This document shows, piece by piece, positions 51,217 through 64,000 of a stretch of DNA of 64,000 nucleotides (positions are counted from its first letter, which is position 1; each line of letters opens with the position of its first letter). The notes beneath the pieces were generated by a model. The model ran no database searches. It saw only the letters and a program-made list of their open reading frames with translations, and was not told the DNA's origin. The stretch lies in the NCBI GenBank assembly GCA_014860565.1, contig JACZJN010000045.1:1-64000 (forward strand). The letters run 5' to 3'. Source of the DNA: Bacteroidota bacterium (GTDB lineage Bacteria > Bacteroidota > Ignavibacteria > SZUA-365). The position numbers and the translations under genes are program-made.

Positions 51217-51356
51217 GCAATTCTTGAGAAGTTCGCGAGAAAACACTATTATACAAAGTCTGAACTTGCGATTCACCATCGAAATTGATAAACTCGAGCG
51301 AGTCGTTTTTAGATAATTCACGTTGTTTGAGATTCCATTCCAGAGGACTGAAGAAG

Positions 51357-52772
51357 GTGGGAAACCTGTCCGACGCGGGTGATATTCTGATCGTCGACGA
51401 TGAGGAGATGATGGGCGTCGTGCTTTCCGGCGTTTTCGAAGACGCGGATTTCACTGTGCGCACCGCAACGAACGGCGAAGATGCCATTCGGCTCATCGGC
51501 GAGCGCCTTCCCGATGCGATGCTGCTCGACATCATCATGCCGGGACTGAGCGGCATGGAGGTGCTCAAGCGCATCAAATCCGTGGACGAGAGCATCCCTG
51601 TCATCCTCATGACTGCCATGGCGGCCGTGAGCGGGGCCGTGGAAGCCATGCGCGCCGGCGCCTACGACTATATCGCCAAACCGTTTCACAACGAAGATCT
51701 TCTGCGGATCGTCAGCGCCGCCGTGCGGCAGCGGCGATCACGCACGGATGTTGTCGTTGCCCGCAACGATGAAAACGAGCAAAGGGACCCGATTCTCTTT
51801 AATATGGGCACCAGCGAAGTGATCATGGAGCTTTCGGCCAGGACGCGGCGTGTTGCGAAGAGCAACTTCGACGTACTGATCACCGGCGAAACCGGCACCG
51901 GGAAAGAGCTGATCGCCCGCTCGATCCATGAAATGAGCGGCCGCGCTGGCAGTCCCTTCATTCCCATCGACACGGGCGCGATCCCGGAAACACTGCTCGA
52001 AAGCGAGCTCTTCGGCCATGAAGAAGGCGCATTCACCGACGCGCGCAATCAGAAAAAGGGGAAGTTCGAGCTCGCCCAGGGCGGAACGATTTTCCTCGAT
52101 GAAGTTCCGAACATGTCGTGGCAGTCGCAGGCCAAACTCCTGCGCGCGCTGCAGGACCGCGCCATCTCCCGCGTCGGCGGCAGCAAGTCCATCAACATCG
52201 ATGTGCGGGTCATCGCGGCGAGCAATACGGATTTCCAGCATATGATCGACGAGAAAAAATTCCGCGCCGATCTTTTCTACCGGCTGCGCGAATTTTCCAT
52301 TCATGTGCCGGCGCTTCGCGAACGCAAGGCCGACATTCCGTTTCTCGTCGACAAGTTCGTGCGGTTGACGAACCAGGAGCTCGGCAAGAATGTGGGCGGC
52401 TGCAGCGCCTCAGCGATAGATGCGCTGATGATGTACGACTGGCCCGGTAACGTGCGCCAGCTGCGTTCGACAGTGCGGAGCGCCGTGCTGCAGGCGGGAC
52501 ACGTAATCGATGTCGAACACCTGGAATTCATGGAAATGGTTTCAGGCGACGGTCATGCGCGACAGGGAGTCGAGATGCCCGAACTCGAAAGCGGCATGCC
52601 TCTCAAGGAACATGTCAAGAAGCATGTCGCGCAGATCGAACGGCAGATCATTTACGAGACGCTGAAATCGACAAAATGGAACAAGGCGAAAACGGCACGC
52701 GTGCTGCAGATAGCCTACAATACCCTGCTCACCAAGATCAGCGAATACGACCTGCAGAATCCCAACGGCTGA
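51357..52772 (+). CDS. NtrC-family response regulator (REC-AAA-HTH) with GAFTDA loop
   Basis: 471 aa from GTG 51357 (GAGG site about 10 bp upstream); a TTG at 51285 is also in frame. The receiver domain has Asp58 (LLDIIMPG). The central sigma-54-interaction AAA+ domain has Walker A GETGTGKE, ELFGHEEGAFTDARNQ (GAFTGA with Gly changed to Asp at the fifth place, a variant seen in this family), Walker B FLDE, and an arginine-finger region FRADLFYRLREF. The C-terminal Fis-type helix-turn-helix is about 430-471 (WNKAKTARVLQIAYNTLLTK). It activates sigma-54 promoters after phosphorylation, very probably by the giant PAS kinase that follows 66 bp downstream. Confidence 0.92.
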   Translation: MGNLSDAGDILIVDDEEMMGVVLSGVFEDADFTVRTATNGEDAIRLIGERLPDAMLLDIIMPGLSGMEVLKRIKSVDESIPVILMTAMAAVSGAVEAMRAGAYDYIAKPFHNEDLLRIVSAAVRQRRSRTDVVVARNDENEQRDPILFNMGTSEVIMELSARTRRVAKSNFDVLITGETGTGKELIARSIHEMSGRAGSPFIPIDTGAIPETLLESELFGHEEGAFTDARNQKKGKFELAQGGTIFLDEVPNMSWQSQAKLLRALQDRAISRVGGSKSINIDVRVIAASNTDFQHMIDEKKFRADLFYRLREFSIHVPALRERKADIPFLVDKFVRLTNQELGKNVGGCSASAIDALMMYDWPGNVRQLRSTVRSAVLQAGHVIDVEHLEFMEMVSGDGHARQGVEMPELESGMPLKEHVKKHVAQIERQIIYETLKSTKWNKAKTARVLQIAYNTLLTKISEYDLQNPNG

Positions 52773-52838: not shown

Positions 52839-55800
52839 ATGATGTATTCGGACGTGCCCATACATATTCTCCTCGTCGAGGATGATCCAGAACAGGTGCA
52901 ATTTCTGAAATTGACCCTGCGTACGGAACAGGAATCCCCCTACTCGCTGACGCATGCCGGAAGTGTCGGAGAGGCGAAGGCGCTCCTCGCGGAATTGCGT
53001 TCGGACGTCATTCTTCTCGATCTGCATCTTCCCGACAGTGCGGGACTCGATACACCGCGCGAGATGCTGACGTGCGCACACGAAATCCCCATCGTCATAT
53101 ACAGCGGCAACACCGACGTCGAAGTCGCCGTCGAGGCCGTGCGTCTCGGAGCGCAGGACTACCTTCTTAAGGGTGAAGCGCGTGAGCCGCTGCTTTCCCG
53201 CGCACTCCGCTATGCGATCGAACGCAAGCGCATCGCGATGGAACTCGAGACGGCGCATAATCAGCTCGAAGAGCGCAACACCGCGCTCGAAATTGCGCGG
53301 GGTGAATTGCGCGCCGAGCGCGACATGTTTGTTTCCGGTCCCACCGTGCTTTTCCAGCGGCAGATCGCTTCCGGTTTCCCGATCACCTTCGTTTCCCGCA
53401 ACGTGTCGCAGTTCGGCTTTCTGCAGCGCGACCTGATGGTCGAGGGATTCCGTTACGATTCGCTGGTGTTCGCCGATGACCGCGAGCCATTCCGCGCGCA
53501 GCTCACTGCCCGTCTTGCCGATGGTGTCGACAGCGTCGAGCAGGAATACCGCATACGGGACGCCAAAGGCGAGATCGTCTGGCTGCATGAAGTTGCGCGT
53601 ATTCAGCGCGACGCGGAAGGCCGGCCGATCGCACAGCTCGCCTACGTCGTCGATATCACGAGGCGGCGGCAGGCGGAGCGCACGTTATCCACGACGCGAA
53701 AACGCTTCGAAAGCATCCTCGGCAGCATCAATGAAATTGTGTACGAAGTCGACGCCAACGGCCGGCTGCTGTACATCAGTCCAGTAATCGAACGCGTCCT
53801 CGGCTGGGAGGCCGACACGCTGCTCGGACAACCCTTCTCCGAACTTGTCGTCGAGGCGCAGCGGAGCGGATGGGATGAAACCTTCCGTCGTGTTCTTTCC
53901 GGATCCATTCTCTCCTGCGAGTTTCCGCTCGCCTCCGCCGATGGCCATGAACGCATATTCCAGATTTCCACGCGGCGGCAGTCCGACGGCGACCAGGTAC
54001 GCGGCGTTGCCGGCGTGCTCACCGACATCACCGAGCGCCGGGAAATGGAGTACGCGATCCGCAACGTTCGCACCCAAACCCAGCAATACCTGGATATCGC
54101 GGAAGTCGTGTTCATGTCGCTCGACCTGAGCGGGTGCATTTCGCTTCTCAACAAGAAGGGCTGCCAGGTGCTCGGCTATTCCGAGAGCGAGATAATCGGG
54201 AAGGACTGGTTCGACCTCTGCATCCCCGAGCCGCTGAGGAATGACCTGCGCGGCTATTTCTTCCGCATACTCGACGGCAGTGAAGCACACCCCGAAGTGC
54301 ATGAAAATGTCGTGCTGACGAAAAAAGGGGAGGAACGTCTCATCCGCTGGCACAACTCCCTGCTGCACGATTCACGCGGAAGGGTGATCGGCATGCTCAG
54401 CAGTGGGGAAGATATCACCGAGCGGCGGCGGATCGAGCAGGAGGCCGAAGGGTCGCGCGAGCTGATCGAACTCGCGCTCTGGGGCGCGGATCTCGGCGCA
54501 TGGGAATGGGACATCGCCACCGATGCCATCACGCTCAACAAGCGTGCGCTTTCGATGTTCGAGTATGAAGCCGATCAGCTGCCCGCCTTCAGCGAACTGC
54601 GGGAACGGACGCTGCCGGCCGAGGATGTGGGGCGTCTGCGCGCGTTGATGGACGACCACCTCGAAGGCCGTTCCCCTGTGTACCAGGCCGAGACATGGAT
54701 GATCTGCAGGACGGGAGAATGGAAATGGGTGCTCGAACGCGGGAAGGTGGTCGCCTCGGATGCTTCCGGCCAGCCCTTGCGTATGGCTGGCACGTATCTG
54801 GATCTCACCGTTCGCAAGTATGCCGAGATCGCCCTTGAAGACAGTGAAAAGAAATTCCGGCTGCTTGCCGAGAACTCGTCGGATATCATCTGGACTGTTA
54901 ACGCTGATTTCGAAATGACGTTTGTCAGTCCATCGGTGGAATTCGTCATTGGGTATACCCCCGCAGAAATGCTGCGGATGAATCTCTTCGATGTGCTGGA
55001 AGATGAATTCCGCCAGGCGAATAAGGATGCGTTCATCACCTTCATGCAGACCGCCTCGGAGCGTCCGCTGCCCGAACGGAACATGCGCGCCGAGGCTCCG
55101 TTCCGGAAAAAGGATGGAGACATCCTGTGGGTGGAAGTCGTCGCGACGCCCATTCTCGACCGGGCCGGCAGACTGATCAGCATTCACGGCAACACGCGCG
55201 ATATTCACCATCGCAAACTTGCCCAGGAGGCATTGGCCGAAAGTGAGGAGAAGTATCGTCTGCTCGTACAGAACCAGACGGATCTCGTGGTGAAAGTGGA
55301 TCTCGATGGGAAACTTCTTTTCGTCAGTCCGTCGTACTGCAGAATGTTCGGGAAAACGGAAGCGGAGTTGCTGCACCAGACCTTCTTCCCGCTGGTCCAC
55401 GAAGACGACCGTCTCAGTACACTCGAAGCGATGAAAAAGCTGTTCGAGCCTCCGTACACCAGCTATCTCGAACAGCGTGCCCTCACGCGCGACGGCTGGC
55501 GATGGCTCGGGTGGCAGGATACCGCCGTGCTCGATGAAACGGGCGAGGTGGTGGCGATCATGGGGGTGGGACGCGATGTGACGGAACGTCGCATGGCGGA
55601 GCGCGCGCTCATCGACAGCGAGAAGCGGCTGCGCACGGTCATCTCGAATCTCCCGGTGATCATGTTCACGCTCGACAGTGCCGGAAGATTCACGCTTTCG
55701 GAGGGCATGGGCCTCGAATCGCTGGGTCTGCATTCGGGCGAGGTCGTCGGGCTCTCCGCCTTCGACGTCTACGCGAATCATCCCGAGGTGCTTGCGACCC

Positions 55801-57812
55801 TGGTGCGGGCGATGGAGGGAGAAGCCTTCGTCGCCACCGTCGAAGTAGACGGAAAATCCTTTGAAACCTGGTATTCGCCCGTGTTCGGGGAGAGCGGCGC
55901 CGTCGAGCATGTCATCGGCGTGGCGGCCGATATCACGAACAGAAAGAAAACCGAGCAGGAACTGACCCAATACCGCGATCATCTCGAGGAACTCGTCGAA
56001 GCGCGAACGCTGGAACTCGAGCGCGCCAACGAGCGTCTCAAGCGCTTCCGTTTCGCGCTCGACAGCGCGGCCGACAACATATACATCATCGATCCGCACA
56101 CGATGAAGTACGTCGACCTCAACGACAGCGCCGTGCAGGCGCTCGGCTACTCGCGTGAAGAGCTTCTGACGATGGGTCCGCAGGACGTTCAGGCCCATGC
56201 CGACAAGCCCGCTCATCTGGGCATTTACGCACAGGTGCGGGACGGGGCGCTGGAAGTCGGCATTTTCGAGACCGAGCATTCAAGGAAAGACGGGACCCAT
56301 TTCCCGGTCGAAGTATTCGTGCGCGCCTTCGGTTCCGGGGAGGAGCGGCTGCTGATCGCGACCTCGCGCGATGTTTCACGCCGCCGCGCCGCGGAACTGG
56401 CGCTGAAGGAATCCGAGTCGAAATATCGCAACGTACTGGAAAACGCGAACGAAGCGATCGTCGTGCTGCAGGACAACCTGCTCCGCTTCTTCAACTACAA
56501 AGTGCTCGAGTTGACCGGATTGAGCGAAGCGGAGCTGAAGGACCTTCCGATCTTCGAATTCGTGCATCCCGACGATCACGTCCTTATTCGGCGGCAGTAC
56601 CAGGAGCGGCTGCGCGGCGGTCTGCTGCCTGAGAGCTACGACGTACGCATGTTCGACAGCAACGGCACCATCAAGTGGATGGAAGTGCGCGACGTGCTCA
56701 TCACCTGGGAAGGGAAGCCCGCGACGCTGAACTTCTTCAACGACATCACCGCCCGCAAGCGTGCCGAGGATTACATCCGTTTCCAGGCGTCTCTGTTGAG
56801 CATCGTGCGCAACTCCGTGATCGCCCTCGATGCGTCCGGCCGCGTCATGTACTGGAATTCCTTCGCGGAGACCCTCTTCGGCTGGACCGCCCAGGAAGTA
56901 CAGGGGAGGAAGCTGCAGGAGCTGTCCACCTTCGGTGTTGAGTTCGAGACTGGTCTGCTGCCATCGCTCAAGCAGCGTGGACACTGGGAAGGCGAAGTCG
57001 AGCTTCCCCGGCGCGACGGCACCATGTTGTCGGTGTATTCCATGTGGAACGTCATCACCGAGGAAGACCAGCTCCGCGGCTACGTCGGCATCGGCATGGA
57101 TCTCTCCGAGCGCAAGAAGCTCGAGCGGGAGCTGCTGCAGTCGCAGAAGCTCGCCTCGCTGGGCATACTTTCCGAGGGCATCGCACACGAACTGCGTAAT
57201 CCGCTGGGGTACGCCAGTTCCGCCGCTCAGCTGCTGATCTCGAAAAAGGATCTGACCGAGGAGCAGCGAAAGAAATACAGCACCGTCATTTATACGGGTG
57301 TCGACCGCGCCAACAAGATCGTGGAAAATCTGCTCCTCATCGGCAAGCCGAAGGGACAGCTGATGAAGAAGCCGCTGAATCTGGTCGATACGGTCAAGGA
57401 AGCGCTTTCGCTGATCTCATCCCATCACAACGCGGACAGCGTGCAGAAAGAGCTGAATTTCGGTTCCAAGCCCCTGCAGGTGCACGGCAACAGGGAAATG
57501 CTCGTGCAGCTGTTCTACAATCTGTTCACGAATGCGATCGACGCCATGGCCGGAAGCGGAACGCTGCGAGTGGGAGGCGAGAAAAAGGGAGCGCATGTGC
57601 GCATCCGCGTCAGCGACACTGGTCCCGGCGTGCCCGACGACATCGTGGAGAATATCTTCGACCCGTTTTTCACCACCTCCAAGACCGACAAGGGCGTCGG
57701 CCTTGGCCTCACGCTCTGTTATTTCATCATGGACGACCACGAAGGCCGCATCGATCTCGACACCACCGCCGAATCCGGCGCCGCCTTCGTCCTGACCTTC
57801 CCCGCCGCCTGA
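52839..57812 (+). CDS. Giant cytoplasmic hybrid histidine kinase, REC plus about ten PAS domains
   Basis: 1657 aa, far longer than a usual kinase. Domains: N-terminal receiver (about 1-125, Asp61 in [10 protein letters not shown]), a coiled coil, then about ten consecutive PAS/PAC modules of roughly 120 residues (about 160-1430), several ending in the ITERR or DITARKRAE type of PAC linker. A HisKA dimer with His1450 ([11 protein letters not shown]) and an HATPase domain follow (about 1545-1655; N box [11 protein letters not shown] boxes DTGPGVPDD and GVGLGLTLC). No membrane segments are visible, so it senses inside the cell. Gene order indicates that it phosphorylates the regulator just upstream. 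The amino-terminal REC may make it part of a larger relay. Confidence 0.93.
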
Positions 57813-58297
57813 CCCGCCCCCGTGCCGACTTTTCCGGCCGCGTAGGCTATCCACCTCATTCCGGGATTTTGTCGCAATCGGACGCGCATTCCCTGCGCTT
57901 TCGTGGCAGTTCACGTCTGCACTCCTGATTTATCCCTCATCATTCGGGAATCCGTTTCCAAAATCCCGGCTTTCCGAGCACCATGCAATTCATTCCCTAT
58001 TCAATTCATTGAATAGTTCTTCAGCCACCTGCATACTCTCCAACGGAGCCCCTTGTCCAAAATTCACGGCCGCAATACGCGGCTGCTCCACCGGTGCCGG
58101 TGCATTTTCTTCAACCATCTCTTTAACCCCGATCCAGTATCCTCTTGTCCCACATGCGACAGTTTTCACGAATCCGGGCCGGATTCCACTAAAACAGATA
58201 TTGGAGTCCTTAAGACAATTTTCTGGCATGTTTTATGCGGTTAAGAAGGGCCATTACCGAATGCCGTACTTGACAACATTGCTGAGGAGAGAGAATC
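57813..58297. other. 485-bp intergenic region before the T9SS cargo gene
   Basis: No supported gene is present. It contains the palindromic repeat element at 57986-58037 (described separately). A GAGGAGAGAG ribosome binding site lies just before the ATG at 58298. A TTGACA at about 58270 is too close to the start codon to be a -35 box of that gene. Nothing else is recognisable. Confidence 0.6.
57986..58037. repeat. Palindromic element, copy A
   Basis: A 52-bp element repeated without gaps at 60704-60755, with 42 of 52 bases the same by hand count. Its core is the perfect inverted repeat CTATTCAA/TTGAATAG (57997-58004 with 58009-58016, loop TTCA). It ends in CTGCATACT in both copies. It lies about 260 bp upstream of the T9SS cargo gene. 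It could be a protein-binding site or an RNA hairpin in the leader. Confidence 0.65.
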
Positions 58298-60172
58298 ATG
58301 CTTAATTCGAGACTACTTTCAATAGTAGGCGCTATCGCGATAACATTCCTTCTGTTCGGAATCGGGACAGAGGCAGCAGGGCAAGTGAAGACTTGGAATG
58401 GTACCACGGGCGATTGGGTGACCGGTGCCAATTGGTCACCAGCCGGAGCACCTGGACCAGGTGACGCAGTGTTTTTCCCTTCCGGGACGTACACAGTAAC
58501 ACTTGCAAGTGCAGTCACAATCACCAATCTCGCGGTTTATGGCCACGTGACACTTACAACGGGGATCACTACAGGAGTGGCAATTACCTGTAATAATCTT
58601 ACGGTTGGGGATGCCAGCAGTCCGGCTCCAGCAGATCTGATTTTGGAAAGAAGCGCTGCGAACACCGATTATTTCCTCTCAGCCAACGGTGTTACTCTGT
58701 TGGACGAAGCCAGAATCATTCGTCCCGCCTTACCTACTGCTAACACAGTGAAGATACAGTTGCGGCGTGCGAGTGGAACGATTGCAATGGGTGATGTTTC
58801 AGACTCTTATGTTGGTGTTGGCGTATATACTGTGACCAGTGGAGGGACGCCGTTTACCACCGATGCGCGTTTCGATGACGACATCACGTTTACCGGCGGT
58901 ACCATTTATCTTGGCTCGCACAACCTCTTTCTGGGAAAAGCATGCACACTGATCACTCCCGTGACAGCTTCGGGCGAACCTGGTTCTATCGGCGCTGGTA
59001 GTGGATATTTTGGTTTCCACTCATCGACGAATGGGACGTATAACAGCCAGCCGATCGGTCGGCTGTGTCGCGAGGTTGGCCCGACAACGCTGGGACCGCT
59101 TTTCTTCCCGGTCGCGCCGATTGATGGTGATATGCCTGGCGATAAATATGTTCCGTGCAGAGTCCAAATAATGAGTTTCACTCCGCCCTTCTCCTCATCG
59201 ACTGTGCCATTCCCCCATGTTGCGGTCCGCCCGGTTGGAATCCAGCACCCGGCGAATCTCCAGGATAAACCCAGCCTTCACCTATACTGGGAAGTCGACG
59301 GAGTTGGCACGCCGGATGTCATTTGCACCAAGGTCGACATGTGGTACCATCAGCATTATGTTACCTCTGGGAGTGATAAAAAGGCATTCTCTGCACGGTA
59401 CTACGACAACATTGTCTACAATAATGTCTTCGGTAGTGGTTGGGATCCGACAGGAATCGAGCAGAACCTGAACTTCTCATCCGGGAATTATATTACGGTT
59501 GGACCCAGTAATTACCCGTCACTCCCTGCGAACCCATGTGTCACTGAATTCGGCGACTATACCATCGGCTTCGGCTACCCGGGCGGCGATCCCATCCCCG
59601 TCGAGCTGACGTCGTTCAGTGCGCGGTACATGGACGGCCGGGTCGATCTCAACTGGCAGACGGCGACGGAGCTGAATAACTTCGGCTTCGCGATCGAGCG
59701 TTCCGTCGATAAGGAGAACTGGGAGGAAGTCGGCTTCGTCCAGGGCTTTGGCACCTCCAGCAGCCCGAAGAGCTATGCGCATAGCGACTATCTGCGCGAT
59801 GATCTCAAGCATTTGCCACAACTGGCGTATCGCCTGCGGCAGATGGATCGTGACGGTACCACGGACTATTCAAATATCGTATTCGTCAAAACGGGCGAAC
59901 TGCCCGAAGGAGTGAAACTGTACGCTGCCTATCCCAATCCCTTCAATCCCACCACCACGATCAGCTTTGCGATCGGAAATCCCGCGGACGTCACGCTCAG
60001 GATTTACAATACCCTGGGACAGAACGTCGCCACGCTGCTGAGGGGCAGCGCGATGGATGCGGGCCTCCATACGGTGCCCTTCAACGGAGATCAGCTCCCG
60101 AGCGGCATCTACATGGCGGTGCTTGAGGCGAATGGCGAAGTGCAGCATCAGAAGCTTGTGCTCAACAAGTGA
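58298..60172 (+). CDS. Secreted T9SS cargo protein with type A sorting domain
   Basis: 624 aa with a GAGGAGAGAG site. The signal peptide ends TEAAGQ. The passenger starts with TWNGTTGDWVTGANWSP and GDAVFFPSGTYTVTLASAVTI, a repetitive beta-helix-like pattern also seen in autotransporter-type surface proteins. From about residue 430 the text changes to the standard T9SS cargo tail: a fibronectin-like module (PVELTSFSARYMDGRVDLNW, ...FGFAIERSVD) and a sorting domain (AAYPNPFNPTTTISF, NTLGQNVATLL, LPSGIYMAVL, KLVLNK). Codon choice looks AT-richer in the passenger than in the tail (change near 59570). Surface or released protein; ligand unknown. Its last 38 codons are repeated as a relic at 61037-61153. 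Confidence 0.85.
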   Translation: MLNSRLLSIVGAIAITFLLFGIGTEAAGQVKTWNGTTGDWVTGANWSPAGAPGPGDAVFFPSGTYTVTLASAVTITNLAVYGHVTLTTGITTGVAITCNNLTVGDASSPAPADLILERSAANTDYFLSANGVTLLDEARIIRPALPTANTVKIQLRRASGTIAMGDVSDSYVGVGVYTVTSGGTPFTTDARFDDDITFTGGTIYLGSHNLFLGKACTLITPVTASGEPGSIGAGSGYFGFHSSTNGTYNSQPIGRLCREVGPTTLGPLFFPVAPIDGDMPGDKYVPCRVQIMSFTPPFSSSTVPFPHVAVRPVGIQHPANLQDKPSLHLYWEVDGVGTPDVICTKVDMWYHQHYVTSGSDKKAFSARYYDNIVYNNVFGSGWDPTGIEQNLNFSSGNYITVGPSNYPSLPANPCVTEFGDYTIGFGYPGGDPIPVELTSFSARYMDGRVDLNWQTATELNNFGFAIERSVDKENWEEVGFVQGFGTSSSPKSYAHSDYLRDDLKHLPQLAYRLRQMDRDGTTDYSNIVFVKTGELPEGVKLYAAYPNPFNPTTTISFAIGNPADVTLRIYNTLGQNVATLLRGSAMDAGLHTVPFNGDQLPSGIYMAVLEANGEVQHQKLVLNK

Positions 60173-60203
60173 GAGTGTGAGAGAGAGAGCACATTGCCGA
60201 ACG

Positions 60204-60233
60204 CATGAGGCGGGATCGCGGTCCCGCCTCGTG
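60204..60233 (+). terminator. Hairpin between cargo gene and small sorting-domain ORF, copy A
   Basis: 12-bp stem with one U-G wobble: CATGAGGCGGGA/TCCCGCCTCGTG (60204-60215 with 60222-60233), 6-nt loop, no T tract. The matching hairpin of copy B is at 61183-61218. Confidence 0.55.
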
Positions 60234-60330: not shown

Positions 60331-60609
60331 ATGGAAATCCCGTTCACGTTTTCGCAATACGCGTATCCGTTGAACCCGAGTGCCACTCTGACGTTCACCC
60401 TTGACGAACCGCAGGAAGTGTCGCTCAAGATCTACAATACGTACGGCCAGGTTGTGCACACGCTATACGAGCGTGTGATGATGAAGCCCGGATACCACGA
60501 GCTCAAGCTGTACGGCGAGACATTTCCCTCGGGTGGCTGCTATGCCCGCCTGCATACAAAATATGGTGTTCAGCAACGCACTCTTGTGCTGAGCACCGAT
60601 AGCCCCTGA
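60331..60609 (+). CDS. Stand-alone T9SS sorting-domain-like protein, copy 1
   Basis: 92 aa from ATG 60331 with CGGAG 7 bp upstream; in-frame ATGs at 60265 and 60205 would lengthen it, but copy 2 has a stop codon in the corresponding leader, so the short start is preferred. The whole protein matches a type A sorting domain: YAYPLNPSATLTFTL stands for YPNPFNP..., then IYNTYGQVVHTLYE, MKPGYHEL, FPSGGCYARL and QQRTLVLS. There is no signal peptide, so it should stay in the cytoplasm unless fused or exported otherwise. It has a single Cys70. Copy 2 (61336-61614) is 88% identical (81 of 92) with many silent codon changes, which indicates selection on the protein. Possible roles: a chaperone or decoy for sorting domains, a regulator of T9SS flux, or a partner of the two-component proteins nearby. 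Confidence 0.65.
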   Translation: MEIPFTFSQYAYPLNPSATLTFTLDEPQEVSLKIYNTYGQVVHTLYERVMMKPGYHELKLYGETFPSGGCYARLHTKYGVQQRTLVLSTDSP

Positions 60610-60656
60610 CGATGAACAGTCGATCCGGAAGGGTCGATAAAGAGTGAGATGAGGAG

Positions 60657-60682
60657 AAGAGTCCGCCCGATGGCGGACTCTT
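60657..60682 (+). terminator. Hairpin after sorting-domain ORF copy 1
   Basis: A perfect 11-bp stem AAGAGTCCGCC/GGCGGACTCTT with a 4-nt loop CGAT, 47 bp after the stop. Its stem shares the GTCCGC/GCGGAC core with the terminator after copy 2 (61647-61675), which supports a common origin. Confidence 0.65.
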
Positions 60683-60703
60683 GCTTAACACCCTGGAGGT
60701 GTT

Positions 60704-60755
60704 CAATCCATTCCCTATGCAACCCATTGCATAGTCCTTCATGCGACTGCATACT
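60704..60755. repeat. Palindromic element, copy B
   Basis: Second copy of the 52-bp element (copy A at 57986-58037). The inverted repeat is CTATGCAA/TTGCATAG (60715-60722 with 60727-60734, loop CCCA). Relative to copy A one base on each arm has changed so that pairing or symmetry is kept. It sits upstream of the cargo relic, the same relative place as copy A upstream of the intact gene. Confidence 0.65.
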
Positions 60756-61036
60756 ATTGCGCATGTAATGCGGAGCTACTTGGGCCGACCCTATAAAAAG
60801 AACAAGAAGCTTTATCCTAAATAACCACATCAGCCAACATCCCTATCCCCTTGTCACCGAACACCCCCGGGGATCCGCGTCACTGTCATTAACGGATAAA
60901 AAATATCAACATTAGCAGAAAATATGTCTGGCGCGCTTTTTGCTGTATAAGGTCCAGAGATAGAAGCTATCGTATCATATTGTACATCTAAGGCCAGTGA
61001 ACTATTACCACGGCGGATCGCCGAATCTGCTCTCTG

Positions 61037-61153
61037 GACGCCGGCCTGCACACGGTTTCCTTCAACGGAGATCAGCTCCCGAGCGGTGTGTACATGGCGG
61101 TGCTGGAGGCGAACGGTGTGCCGCAATACCAGAAGCTTGTGCTCAACAAGTGA
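61037..61153 (+). pseudogene. 3' relic of a T9SS cargo gene
   Basis: Thirty-eight in-frame codons and a stop that match the end of the 58298-60172 product (DAGLHTVSFNGDQLPSGVYM... to KLVLNK). Upstream similarity stops near 61010 with a deletion and loss of frame, and no start or signal peptide is present. The sequence after the stop (TGAGAGTGGAAGAGAGAGAGC) also matches the intact copy. It is the remains of a duplicated cargo gene. Confidence 0.8.
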
Positions 61154-61182
61154 GAGTGGAAGAGAGAGAGCACAATTGCTGA

Positions 61183-61218
61183 TTACGCAAGGCGGGGCGC
61201 AAGCCCCGCCTCGCGTAA
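61183..61218 (+). terminator. Hairpin between relic and small sorting-domain ORF, copy B
   Basis: Inner stem AGGCGGGGC/GCCCCGCCT with a GCAA (GNRA) tetraloop and outer stem TTACGC/GCGTAA separated by one mismatch. It equals the copy A hairpin at 60204-60233 in place and general sequence, but the arms differ. Confidence 0.55.
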
Positions 61219-61335
61219 AGCGAATATGGAACACTGCCCTGAGGAGGGCGTTGCGTCGGAGAGAAGAGTGGTGAGAATGGAAATTGCTGAATTAAGTGAA
61301 TGCAGCAGCGAACCGAGTAGCGGAGTAGAGAAATA

Positions 61336-61614
61336 ATGGAGATTCCGTTCACGTTTTCGCAATACGCGTATCCGTTGAACCCGAGTGCCACGTTGTCGTT
61401 TACGCTGGAAGAACCGCAAGAGATTTCACTGAAAATCTATAACACGTTCGGACAGGTTGTGCACACGCTTTACGAAAGGGTTCTGATGAAACCCGGATAC
61501 CATGAACTGAGGCTGTATGGCGAGACCTTCCCCTCGGGTGGATGTTACGCACGGCTTCATACGAATAATGGAGTACAACAGCGCACACTTGTGCTGAGCA
61601 GTGAAAACCCCTGA
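61336..61614 (+). CDS. Stand-alone T9SS sorting-domain-like protein, copy 2
   Basis: 92 aa from ATG 61336, with CGGAG upstream and an in-frame TAG shortly before it, so the start cannot lie further upstream. 81 of 92 residues equal copy 1; ten of the eleven changes are conservative or at the C-terminal tail (for example D25E, V30I, Y38F, K59R), while many third codon positions differ. Bases 10-56 of the two ORFs are identical. It is a free sorting domain without signal peptide, with Cys70 kept, and it ends before a strong terminator. The intergenic relic before it suggests it arose with the cassette duplication. Confidence 0.65.
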   Translation: MEIPFTFSQYAYPLNPSATLSFTLEEPQEISLKIYNTFGQVVHTLYERVLMKPGYHELRLYGETFPSGGCYARLHTNNGVQQRTLVLSSENP

Positions 61615-61646
61615 CGCAGGCGGTTTGATGAATATGAGTAGAGGTG

Positions 61647-61675
61647 AAAAAAGTCCGCGGCATGCGGACTTTTTT
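61647..61675. terminator. Intrinsic terminator after sorting-domain ORF copy 2
   Basis: A perfect 12-bp stem AAAAAAGTCCGC/GCGGACTTTTTT with a GGCAT loop. The T run gives termination in the forward direction and the A run could serve the reverse. It separates the cassette from the second two-component pair. Confidence 0.85.
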
Positions 61676-61752
61676 CTTGCCCCATGCTGGTCTGAATTCG
61701 GAGTTTTTTATATTATGTCCTGAATACGTTTTGGACGCAACCCTCCTTCGCC

Positions 61753-63135
61753 ATGCCACATACCGAGAGACCCGACGTACTGATCGTCGATGACGAAAGC
61801 CTGATCTGTTTCGTTCTCACGCATCTGCTCAAGGTGCATGGATACGGATCCCGCACTGCTTCGCGCGGCGATATCGCACTGCGTATGATCGAAGACAGAC
61901 GTCCCGACCTCATCATCATGGACATCCGCATGCCCGGCATGAGCGGCTTCGATGTGCTCGCCCGCATCAGGGAATTCGATTCCCATGTCCCGGTGATTCT
62001 GATGACGGCGCTTTCAGGCGTGCGCGATGCGGTCGTGGCCATGAAAGCCGGGGCCTTCGATTACATCGCCAAGCCATTCAACAACGATGACATGATCGCC
62101 ACAGTGAACCGGGCCATGAATCTCGCGGCGGAGATGCAGGCGCAGCGTTCTGCGGAAGAGAAGACCGAGGACGCCCTCCACCCGGCCTTTGCTTCGATGG
62201 GAAGCAGCCTCGCCGTGCGCCGCCTCGCGCGTGAGAGCGGCCGTCTTGCCAAAAGGGCGACACCGGTCATGATCGTCGGAGAAATCGGGGTGGGAAAACG
62301 CCTACTCGCCCGAACGATGCACGCACTCAGCGAACGGAACGGCGGTTTTTTCGACATCGACTGTACAGGAGTGGATGAACTCCTTCTGCGCCACGAACTG
62401 TTTGGGTCTGCCTCCGGGAACGGACAGAGTGGCAAACTCGAACTCGCGAGCGACGGGACGCTGCTGCTCGATGAGGTCTCGGACATCCCGTGGACCCTCC
62501 AGGACACGCTCGCCGAGGAGTTACATCAAGGCCAGTTTCACCGTCCTGCAGGCGATGATATCCTGCCGATCGCTGCACGACTGCTCTTTTCCGCGAGCAT
62601 CGGACCGGGCAAGGGCATTGACGGAAATTATTTGACCCGGCGCTTCCGCGAGCTGTACGGGGAAGCGATTCTCGAAGTACCGCCGCTGCGGGATCGTCAT
62701 GAAGATATTCCACTCCTTGCCGCGGATTTCCTCAAGGACGCCAACGCCGAACTCGGCCGGGAAATCACAGGCATTTCAGAAGCGGCCCTCGAACTTCTCG
62801 TGGCGTACCACTGGCCGGGGAATGTGCACCAGCTGAAATCCACGATCCGGCGTGCCGCATTGACGGCAAAGGAACAGGTAGACATCGACGATATCGAGCT
62901 TCCGCTGGCGCAATCGGTGATGGACGAAGATGGGGAGTCTTTCCCCCGAATCACAGTCACGACCGCTCCGTTGAAGGTTCAGGTAAAACGCCATATCGCC
63001 AAGCTGGAGAGACAGCTGGTCTTCGACACTCTGCGAAAAACGGGTTGGAACAAGGCGCAGGCATCGAGAATGCTCGGTGTCACATACAAGACGCTCTTGA
63101 AAAAAGTGAGCGAATACGGCATTGATCATGGATGA
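61753..63135 (+). CDS. NtrC-like response regulator lacking the GAFTGA loop
   Basis: 460 aa. Receiver domain with Asp57 (IIMDIRMPG). The AAA+ domain is degenerate: Walker A is GEIGVGKR, and where the 51357 paralogue has HEEGAFTDARNQ this protein has SASGNGQSG, so the GAFTGA sigma-54 contact loop is absent. Walker B is LLLDEV and the arginine-finger region reads RRFRELYGEAILEVPPLRDR. The C-terminal Fis-type HTH is well kept (WNKAQASRMLGVTYKTLLKK). Regulators without GAFTGA that work at sigma-70 promoters are known (for example TyrR and Rhodobacter NtrC), so this one may repress or activate without sigma-54. It is paired with the PAS kinase 36 bp downstream. Confidence 0.88.
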   Translation: MPHTERPDVLIVDDESLICFVLTHLLKVHGYGSRTASRGDIALRMIEDRRPDLIIMDIRMPGMSGFDVLARIREFDSHVPVILMTALSGVRDAVVAMKAGAFDYIAKPFNNDDMIATVNRAMNLAAEMQAQRSAEEKTEDALHPAFASMGSSLAVRRLARESGRLAKRATPVMIVGEIGVGKRLLARTMHALSERNGGFFDIDCTGVDELLLRHELFGSASGNGQSGKLELASDGTLLLDEVSDIPWTLQDTLAEELHQGQFHRPAGDDILPIAARLLFSASIGPGKGIDGNYLTRRFRELYGEAILEVPPLRDRHEDIPLLAADFLKDANAELGREITGISEAALELLVAYHWPGNVHQLKSTIRRAALTAKEQVDIDDIELPLAQSVMDEDGESFPRITVTTAPLKVQVKRHIAKLERQLVFDTLRKTGWNKAQASRMLGVTYKTLLKKVSEYGIDHG

Positions 63136-63171: not shown

Positions 63172-64000
63172 GTGAAAAAGAAAATGGCGGTTTTCCCCGC
63201 ACAAATTGAACAGGTATTGGACATGTTTCCCGACGCCGTGTACGTGCTTGACGACACAGGCGTTTTTCTGTATGCGAACCCGGCGGTGGAACAGCAGACG
63301 GGATGGGAACCCGCACAGCTCATCGGCCAGTCCATTATCGATTCCCTGCTCTTTGCTCTTCCCTTTCGTTCGACGCTGCTCGGTTCGCTGCGCAGTGATG
63401 GAAGCTGGCAGGGCGAGTCGGAGCGCATTATGCCCGACGGCAGCCTGCGGAGCGTGCGCGCCCTCTGGCGGCGGCTGGCAGAGCCGGTCGGACCAGGGTG
63501 GGTTATCGGCATCGAACATGACATCTCCGAGTACAGCGCACGCGATGCTGAATTCCAGCAGGCCCGCAAGCTCGCGAAAATCGGGATTCTCTCTGAAGGT
63601 ATTGCCCATGAACTACGAAACCCCTTGAGCTACGCCCTTTCCGCGGCGCAGTTGCTCACCGAGGATGACCTGCCTGACGAAGTGCGGCAGAAGTGCATTC
63701 AAACGATCGCGACAGGCGTGAAAAAAGCCGGCCTGATCGTCGATAACATGCTCTCGCTCGGGAAGCCAAAAGCGCAGGTTGTCCGCCATCAGGTGAGTTT
63801 AGAGAAAGTCCTGGCCGAGGCCATCGACGCCGCCGCAACGCATCCGAACTCCCATACCGCTGCCATCACGCACTATTTCCCGGCGGCTGCGCTCACCGTG
63901 CTGGGGAATCACGACATGCTCGTACAGGTGTTCCACAATGTCATCACCAACGCGTTGAACGAAATGCCGGACGGCGGCAGCATCAGCGTCCGGGGAGAAG
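63172..64000 (+). CDS. PAS-domain histidine kinase, partial at window end
   Basis: 276 codons are visible from GTG 63172, which has GGGAGA 7 bp upstream; ATG 63184 is in frame. The reading frame stays open to the end of the window. One PAS domain (about 10-125; MFPDAVYVLDDTGVFLYANPAVEQQTG) is followed by a HisKA domain with His146 ([11 protein letters not shown]) and the start of the HATPase (N box HNVITNALNEM). The HisKA region closely resembles that of the giant kinase at 52839, so the two kinases are paralogues. No membrane segment is seen. It should phosphorylate the GAFTGA-less regulator. Confidence 0.9.
   Translation, partial: MKKKMAVFPAQIEQVLDMFPDAVYVLDDTGVFLYANPAVEQQTGWEPAQLIGQSIIDSLLFALPFRSTLLGSLRSDGSWQGESERIMPDGSLRSVRALWRRLAEPVGPGWVIGIEHDISEYSARDAEFQQARKLAKIGILSEGIAHELRNPLSYALSAAQLLTEDDLPDEVRQKCIQTIATGVKKAGLIVDNMLSLGKPKAQVVRHQVSLEKVLAEAIDAAATHPNSHTAAITHYFPAAALTVLGNHDMLVQVFHNVITNALNEMPDGGSISVRGE

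Follow-up and report, generated by a model that had tools for sequence, protein, structure and literature searches.

A free-standing relative of the T9SS sorting domain and its possible regulatory role, inside the cytoplasm, in a sigma54 two-component circuit

What does a secretion signal do once it has a gene to itself? The question is raised by the window analysed here, a stretch of DNA of 64,000 nucleotides in which two short reading frames, small genes a and b, each encode a protein resembling the type A sorting domain (CTD) of the T9SS. The original prediction had placed both frames, given each product a length of 92 residues, noted the lack of a signal peptide and counted 81 of 92 residues as identical between the two, and all of these points were reproduced (88% identity in the genome search). 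The small genes lie among genes for a T9SS cargo protein and for two two-component systems, in the following order:

51285..52772, forward strand: RR1, an NtrC-type response regulator with Pfam receiver, AAA+ sigma54-interaction and Fis-type HTH domains
52839..57812, forward strand: HK1, a 1657-aa sensor kinase with Pfam receiver, many PAS, HisKA and HATPase domains
58298..60172, forward strand: cargo a, with a Sec signal peptide, a body, a conserved C-terminal region and a type A CTD ending in KLVLNK
60331..60609, forward strand: small gene a, encoding a 92-aa free-standing CTD-like protein
61035..61153, forward strand: cargo b remnant, the last ~38 codons plus the stop
61336..61614, forward strand: small gene b, encoding a 92-aa free-standing CTD-like protein
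61753..63135, forward strand: RR2, an NtrC-like response regulator by Pfam, in which the GAFTGA loop is absent
63172..64000, forward strand: HK2, a PAS histidine kinase by Pfam, whose gene extends past the window end in the contig

The sequence evidence indicates that both frames are genuine genes for a leaderless protein. Their DNA differs at 6, 4 and 42 sites in codon positions 1, 2 and 3, respectively, which corresponds to a dS of 1.31, a dN of 0.061 and a dN/dS of 0.047 (NG86). This ratio is far below 1 and agrees with the earlier claim that the differences are mostly silent and that the protein is under purifying selection. Purifying selection was found for every pair of small genes with measurable dS (w 0.009-0.22), and the reading frame is intact in all 13 copies of the family, none of which has a signal peptide. 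A repeat search independently recovered a 281-nt direct repeat that covers the two copies. The repeat exceeds the two frames, as the duplicated unit consists of an upstream palindrome, a sigma54 site, a cargo gene, a hairpin and a small ORF. The original prediction had also raised the concern that the frames might be tails of a larger protein. Read-through or frameshifting from the cargo gene is rejected, since the small ORF is in another frame and stop codons and a hairpin intervene, and a pseudogene or chance ORF is rejected by the dN/dS and by the monophyly of the family.

The start of the small protein is assigned to the sequence MEIPF because an in-frame stop closes the frame 1-5 codons 5' of the ATG in small gene b and its orthologue in genome G001. 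The frame of small gene a is open for 50 codons 5' of the ATG through a stretch that is neither hydrophobic nor conserved, and the 5' extensions of the other copies are variable, non-hydrophobic and non-conserved. Three small genes of genome G007 lack the MEIPF methionine, so that their start must be further upstream. A cytoplasmic location for the small protein is supported by its sequence.

The small gene has a narrow distribution. It occurs in 7 of the 12 genomes of one bacterial family, in three genera and 13 copies in total, and was found in no other genome of a 294-genome sample of the class or a 396-genome sample of the phylum at E <= 1e-16. The carriers, all from this family, are mostly MAGs, and those relatives that have a name are MAGs with the labels Bacteroidetes bacterium SZUA-365 and uncultured Ignavibacteria. 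Among the five non-carriers in the family, three have contigs that break exactly at the locus and two are without the whole module. G004 and G006, whose Mrp loci are well assembled, carry no RR2/HK2 at that position and no small gene. G002, G009 and G010 were left out of the absence counts, as their contigs end inside HK2 or RR2; reading them as cases of co-absence with RR2 was rejected because these contig ends are assembly gaps. Contig breaks at a tandem repeat of the cargo make counts of gene absence misleading at three loci (L058, L061 and L062) of three related MAGs.

The 13 small proteins group in a single clade (100/100) that includes neither the cargo CTDs of their own loci nor other CTDs of the genome. 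Searching the genome with the small protein returned its two copies, then the CTD of the upstream cargo, and then about 74 weaker matches to T9SS sorting domains, nearly all within long reading frames. The complete genome G007 has 150 scored TIGR04183 matches, and the open frames that hold them are all at least 184 aa long. The proposed family of stand-alone domains is borne out by 13 monophyletic copies encoded as separate genes in 7 genomes. Among the papers listed in searches of the open-licence PMC literature, none described a CTD protein that is leaderless and stands alone.

How closely is the small protein related to a working sorting signal? The resemblance to TIGR04183-type domains claimed at the outset is real with respect to sequence and fold, but its scores of 15.9 and 16.4 bits are below the cut-off of 23, whereas the CTD of cargo a scores 40.4 bits; PF18962 gave no match to the small proteins. 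The small protein is 40% identical to the adjacent upstream cargo CTD (E 1.4e-14) and can be aligned with it over about 80 residues. An AF2 model of the family is all-beta (pLDDT 82.7), and a Foldseek search with it returned Ig-like sandwiches, the fold of the type A sorting domain, including FlgD and chain 8gl8_D of a T9SS translocon complex, none at E <0.001. A sequence search of the PDB with the small protein gave no match, and the predicted model of the cargo was poor (pLDDT 49). From sequence and fold, the small protein appears to descend from the T9SS type A sorting domain or to be its sister.

Unlike that domain, the small protein has its own gene, no Sec signal and no cargo domain; it is not the C-terminus of a larger protein that carries a Sec signal peptide. 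All small proteins have a YPLNPSAT-type sequence where CTDs carry YPNPFNP, and the PNPF motif is lost. Cargo CTDs end in K/R-L/V/I-V-L-N/S-K, whereas the small proteins begin this stretch with T, S or N and continue beyond its end. PNPF and the C-terminal basic residues are lost in 13 of 13 small proteins and kept in 12 of 12 cargo CTDs, and the terminal lysine (motif C-t) is missing from all 13 small proteins. In structures of the T9SS translocon, one highly conserved CTD lysine contacts PorV (PMC10994853), and secretion in Porphyromonas gingivalis requires the C-terminal motif with its lysine (PMC11285876). We infer which residue of the small protein matches the PorV-contacting lysine. SprA is encoded in all seven carrier genomes. 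Given the lack of a Sec signal and the loss of both PNPF and the C-terminal lysine motif, the small protein should reach neither PorV nor SprA, and the suggestion that it titrates or guides the T9SS is unlikely on the same grounds. The small protein is thus best described, as judged from its motifs, as a sorting-domain relative and not as a working sorting signal. The family has 31 residues, including one cysteine, that are invariant in 13 of 13 copies. This cysteine (Cys70) belongs to an invariant Cys-Tyr-Ala-Arg-Leu sequence, and cargo CTDs have a tyrosine at its position; the motif may be a redox or binding site.

The full order of the module is RR1-HK1-[cargo-small]x1-2-RR2-HK2. G000, G003 and G008 have RR1-HK1-[cargo-small]-[cargo-small]-RR2. 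HK2, Mrp and NifU come next in G000 and G008, and parts of the module are visible in G001, G005 and G011 as far as their contigs extend. In G007 the block is split between two places (loci L050 and L051), and each half has cargo-small units and its own two-component system. All 13 small genes lie within this order or the G007 halves, and 12 of the 13 adjoin their own cargo gene. The association with the flanking two-component systems, on which the earlier idea of a signal to them relied, is therefore non-random, as seen from the conserved synteny and the presence of cargo-small units in both G007 halves. The thirteenth copy, small gene b, follows a recently deleted cargo. All 16 differences between the remnant of cargo b and the cargo tail of G001 are at third positions, with the first and second positions unchanged, which implies that cargo b was lost very recently or that the assembly is at fault. 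For this reason the deletion was not accepted as proving the small gene independent of its cargo. The stretch at 60735-61034, which runs from the second palindrome to the remnant of cargo b, may reflect this recent deletion or misassembly of the tandem repeat. A conserved untranslated sequence resembling GTGAGAGTGGAGAGAGAGCACA lies just 3' of the cargo stop in two genera, for example at 60170-60195 and 61151-61175.

RR1 has a GAFTDA loop in its orthologues of G000, G003 and G009. In the RR2 orthologues the loop is absent wherever the region is readable, and RR2 is possibly a sigma54-incompetent co-regulator or antagonist. In HK1, Pfam matched about eight PAS domains and no membrane domain. The DNA between the genes contains the following elements:

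57997..58016, no strand: palindrome CTATTCAATTCATTGAATAG, an exact genome site and candidate upstream activator site of cargo a
58223..58239, forward strand: sigma54 -24/-12-like element of cargo a, CTGGCATGTTTTATGCG (9/13 match, not significant alone)
60207..60230, forward strand: GC-rich hairpin that separates cargo a from small gene a and resembles a terminator or attenuator, with a strong stem in most copies
60659..60680, forward strand: terminator-like hairpin 3' of small gene a, with a T run in several relatives
60715..60734, no strand: second exact palindrome, CTATGCAACCCATTGCATAG, from the genome search
60928..60944, forward strand: sigma54-like element of the deleted cargo b, CTGGCGCGCTTTTTGCT (11/13 match)
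61190..61211, forward strand: hairpin between the cargo b remnant and small gene b, seen in the sequence
61653..61669, forward strand: intrinsic terminator 3' of small gene b, a hairpin plus TTTTTT

All ten cargo genes for which enough upstream sequence was available have a sigma54 -24/-12-like element, at a distance of 54-60 nt from the ATG. Compared with shuffles, seven of the ten elements are strong, one is marginal and two (G000a and G003a, each a 9/13 match) are not significant alone. A genome-wide search for the pattern at two mismatches gave no more sites than the control, and so the evidence for sigma54 is the fixed position of the element across genomes alone. The exact palindrome has two sites in the 4.75 Mb G000 genome, both inside the module, and one to three palindromes of the form CTATKCAANNNNTTGMATAG occur in each of nine cargo upstream regions out of nine, about 265-310 nt before the start and often 16 or 20 nt apart. 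The nearest cargo outside the module in G007 has no sigma54 site, palindrome or small gene. Together with rpoN, present in nine of nine family genomes examined, and an NtrC-type activator with a GAFTGA-type loop (GAFTDA in RR1), the -24/-12 element gives the module the parts of a sigma54 two-component operon, and the phased palindromes about 200 nt further upstream and the adjacent NtrC-type regulators are likewise as in sigma54/NtrC-type operons. The difference lies in the target, which is a T9SS cargo gene with a CTD-like small gene. These sequence patterns give good support to a unit in which a sigma54 promoter, with phased palindromes upstream of it, serves both the cargo and the small gene; RR1, with its GAFTDA loop, would be the obvious activator of this predicted unit and RR2 a possible co-regulator. 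None of the papers listed in searches of the open-licence PMC literature reported T9SS cargo under the control of sigma54.

The hairpin between cargo and small gene keeps its pairing while the stem sequence varies among genomes (z-scores -0.8 to -3.6), and in G005, G008 and G011 a T run comes after it. With this hairpin in place, probably only part of the transcripts reach the small gene, and less small protein than cargo would be made. Rfam matches to Thr and Trp leaders at 61551-61678 are below gathering and fall on the terminator, and they were rejected.

Between genomes, the small protein is 67-93% identical, the cargo 41-50% (cargo body 32-43%, cargo CTD 56-84%), HK1 56-71%, RR2 46-61% and the housekeeping protein Mrp 69-78%; the figures for the small proteins and cargo are those of the best paralogue pair and are raised by this choice. 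The small protein is the best conserved member of the module and about as tightly held as a housekeeping enzyme. Its conservation exceeds that of the cargo, and so should that of its partner. The leading possibility, to which we give a probability of about 40%, is that the small protein serves the sigma54 two-component circuit as a regulatory partner in the cytoplasm, with a sorting-domain fold that has retired from secretion. We favour this reading because of the synteny, the tight, cargo-independent conservation and the loss of export features. The small protein would be produced alongside the cargo without leaving the cytoplasm, where its Ig-like beta-sandwich may bind either the response regulators or the PAS kinases, which are cytosolic. 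Alternatively, it may pair with the CTD of unexported cargo by strand swapping. Either way it could act as a feedback or coupling regulator that matches transcription of the cargo operon to export, in the way that HrpV and HrpG connect secretion with transcription in a type III system. The more specific proposal that a secretion-signal domain was freed from its cargo and became a cytoplasmic regulator of the circuit controlling synthesis of that cargo is tentative. Two observations weigh against a regulator: the 1:1 pairing with the cargo gene equally fits a cargo-specific partner, and the synteny could reflect shared ancestry within one family.

The main rival is such a cytoplasmic partner or chaperone of the cargo, made from the same operon, that would shield the cargo CTD or swap strands with it ahead of Sec export and then stay behind. 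The adjacency of one small gene to each cargo gene in 12 of 13 copies, the relatedness of the small protein to the CTD, the strand-swapped dimers formed by isolated CTDs (PMC4804311) and the lack of a small gene beside a cargo paralogue outside the module would all be expected of a chaperone. It is harder to see why a chaperone would be far more conserved than the cargo body, and more so than even the cargo CTD, why about 75 other CTD matches of the genome do without a small gene, or why a terminator-like hairpin separates the two genes in several relatives, and we regard such a partner as plausible but less likely than the regulator.

The strong constraint and the 31 invariant residues, with their single cysteine, could also be explained if the beta-sandwich was exapted for a structural or enzymatic role in the cytoplasm, unrelated to circuit or cargo, with Cys70-Tyr-Ala-Arg-Leu in the working surface. 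As the small gene is never seen away from the cargo and two-component module, such a role seems unlikely. Less probable again is that the leaderless protein exits through a different pathway to serve as a decoy CTD, either at the T9SS or on the surface. The CTD-like fold and the weak match to 8gl8_D suit a decoy, but no copy has a signal peptide and the C-terminal lysine motif that matters for PorV contact and secretion (PMC10994853, PMC11285876) is replaced in all of them. That the small ORFs are functionless, decaying fragments of a duplicated cargo gene would accord with the second cargo, which really is a deleted remnant (61035-61153), yet it is scarcely credible for one monophyletic family (100/100) with a dN/dS of 0.047 and frames intact in 13 of 13 copies over three genera.

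Precedents for a cytoplasmic regulator linked to export come from other systems. HrpV and HrpG are small cytoplasmic proteins that link export to transcription in the Hrp type III system (PMC6069116, PMC4145663); both they and their secretion system are unrelated to the small protein, and the analogy is one of function. PorA of P. gingivalis is a short CTD protein reported to act upstream of the two-component system PorXY-SigP (PMC7712824). PorA has a signal peptide, a FimH-like domain, a PorV-binding CTD and a surface location (PMC7712824), whereas the small protein is without a signal peptide, and the downstream factor of the PorA pathway is an ECF sigma in place of sigma54. PorA and HrpG/HrpV are thus functional precedents for the small protein and not its relatives. 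The small protein bears on the question of how T9SS bacteria sense their export state, and with it on what activates PorY in P. gingivalis (PMC7712824). An export-signal fold that stands alone within a short, well-defined sigma54 circuit makes the step from sorting domain to two-component signalling directly addressable. Selection on the small genes points to a secretion signal that has been reused as an independent cytoplasmic protein. If the regulator reading is true, control of transcription by export would have been built out of the export signal itself.

Sites of the same kind occur elsewhere in G000. The sole one-mismatch palindrome of this genome (C132:32568) lies upstream of a T9SS cargo-like gene with a sigma54-like element. 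This gene belongs to a cluster (C132:23803-32146, locus L078) of T9SS cargo-like genes encoded by the minus strand; sigma54-like elements precede several of their start codons, and a second cargo there has a site with a 13/13 match, TTGGCACGATTATTGCA. The cluster adjoins the gene for a 1608-aa sensor, and its elements suggest that a sigma54 regulon of T9SS cargo may be wider than the module.
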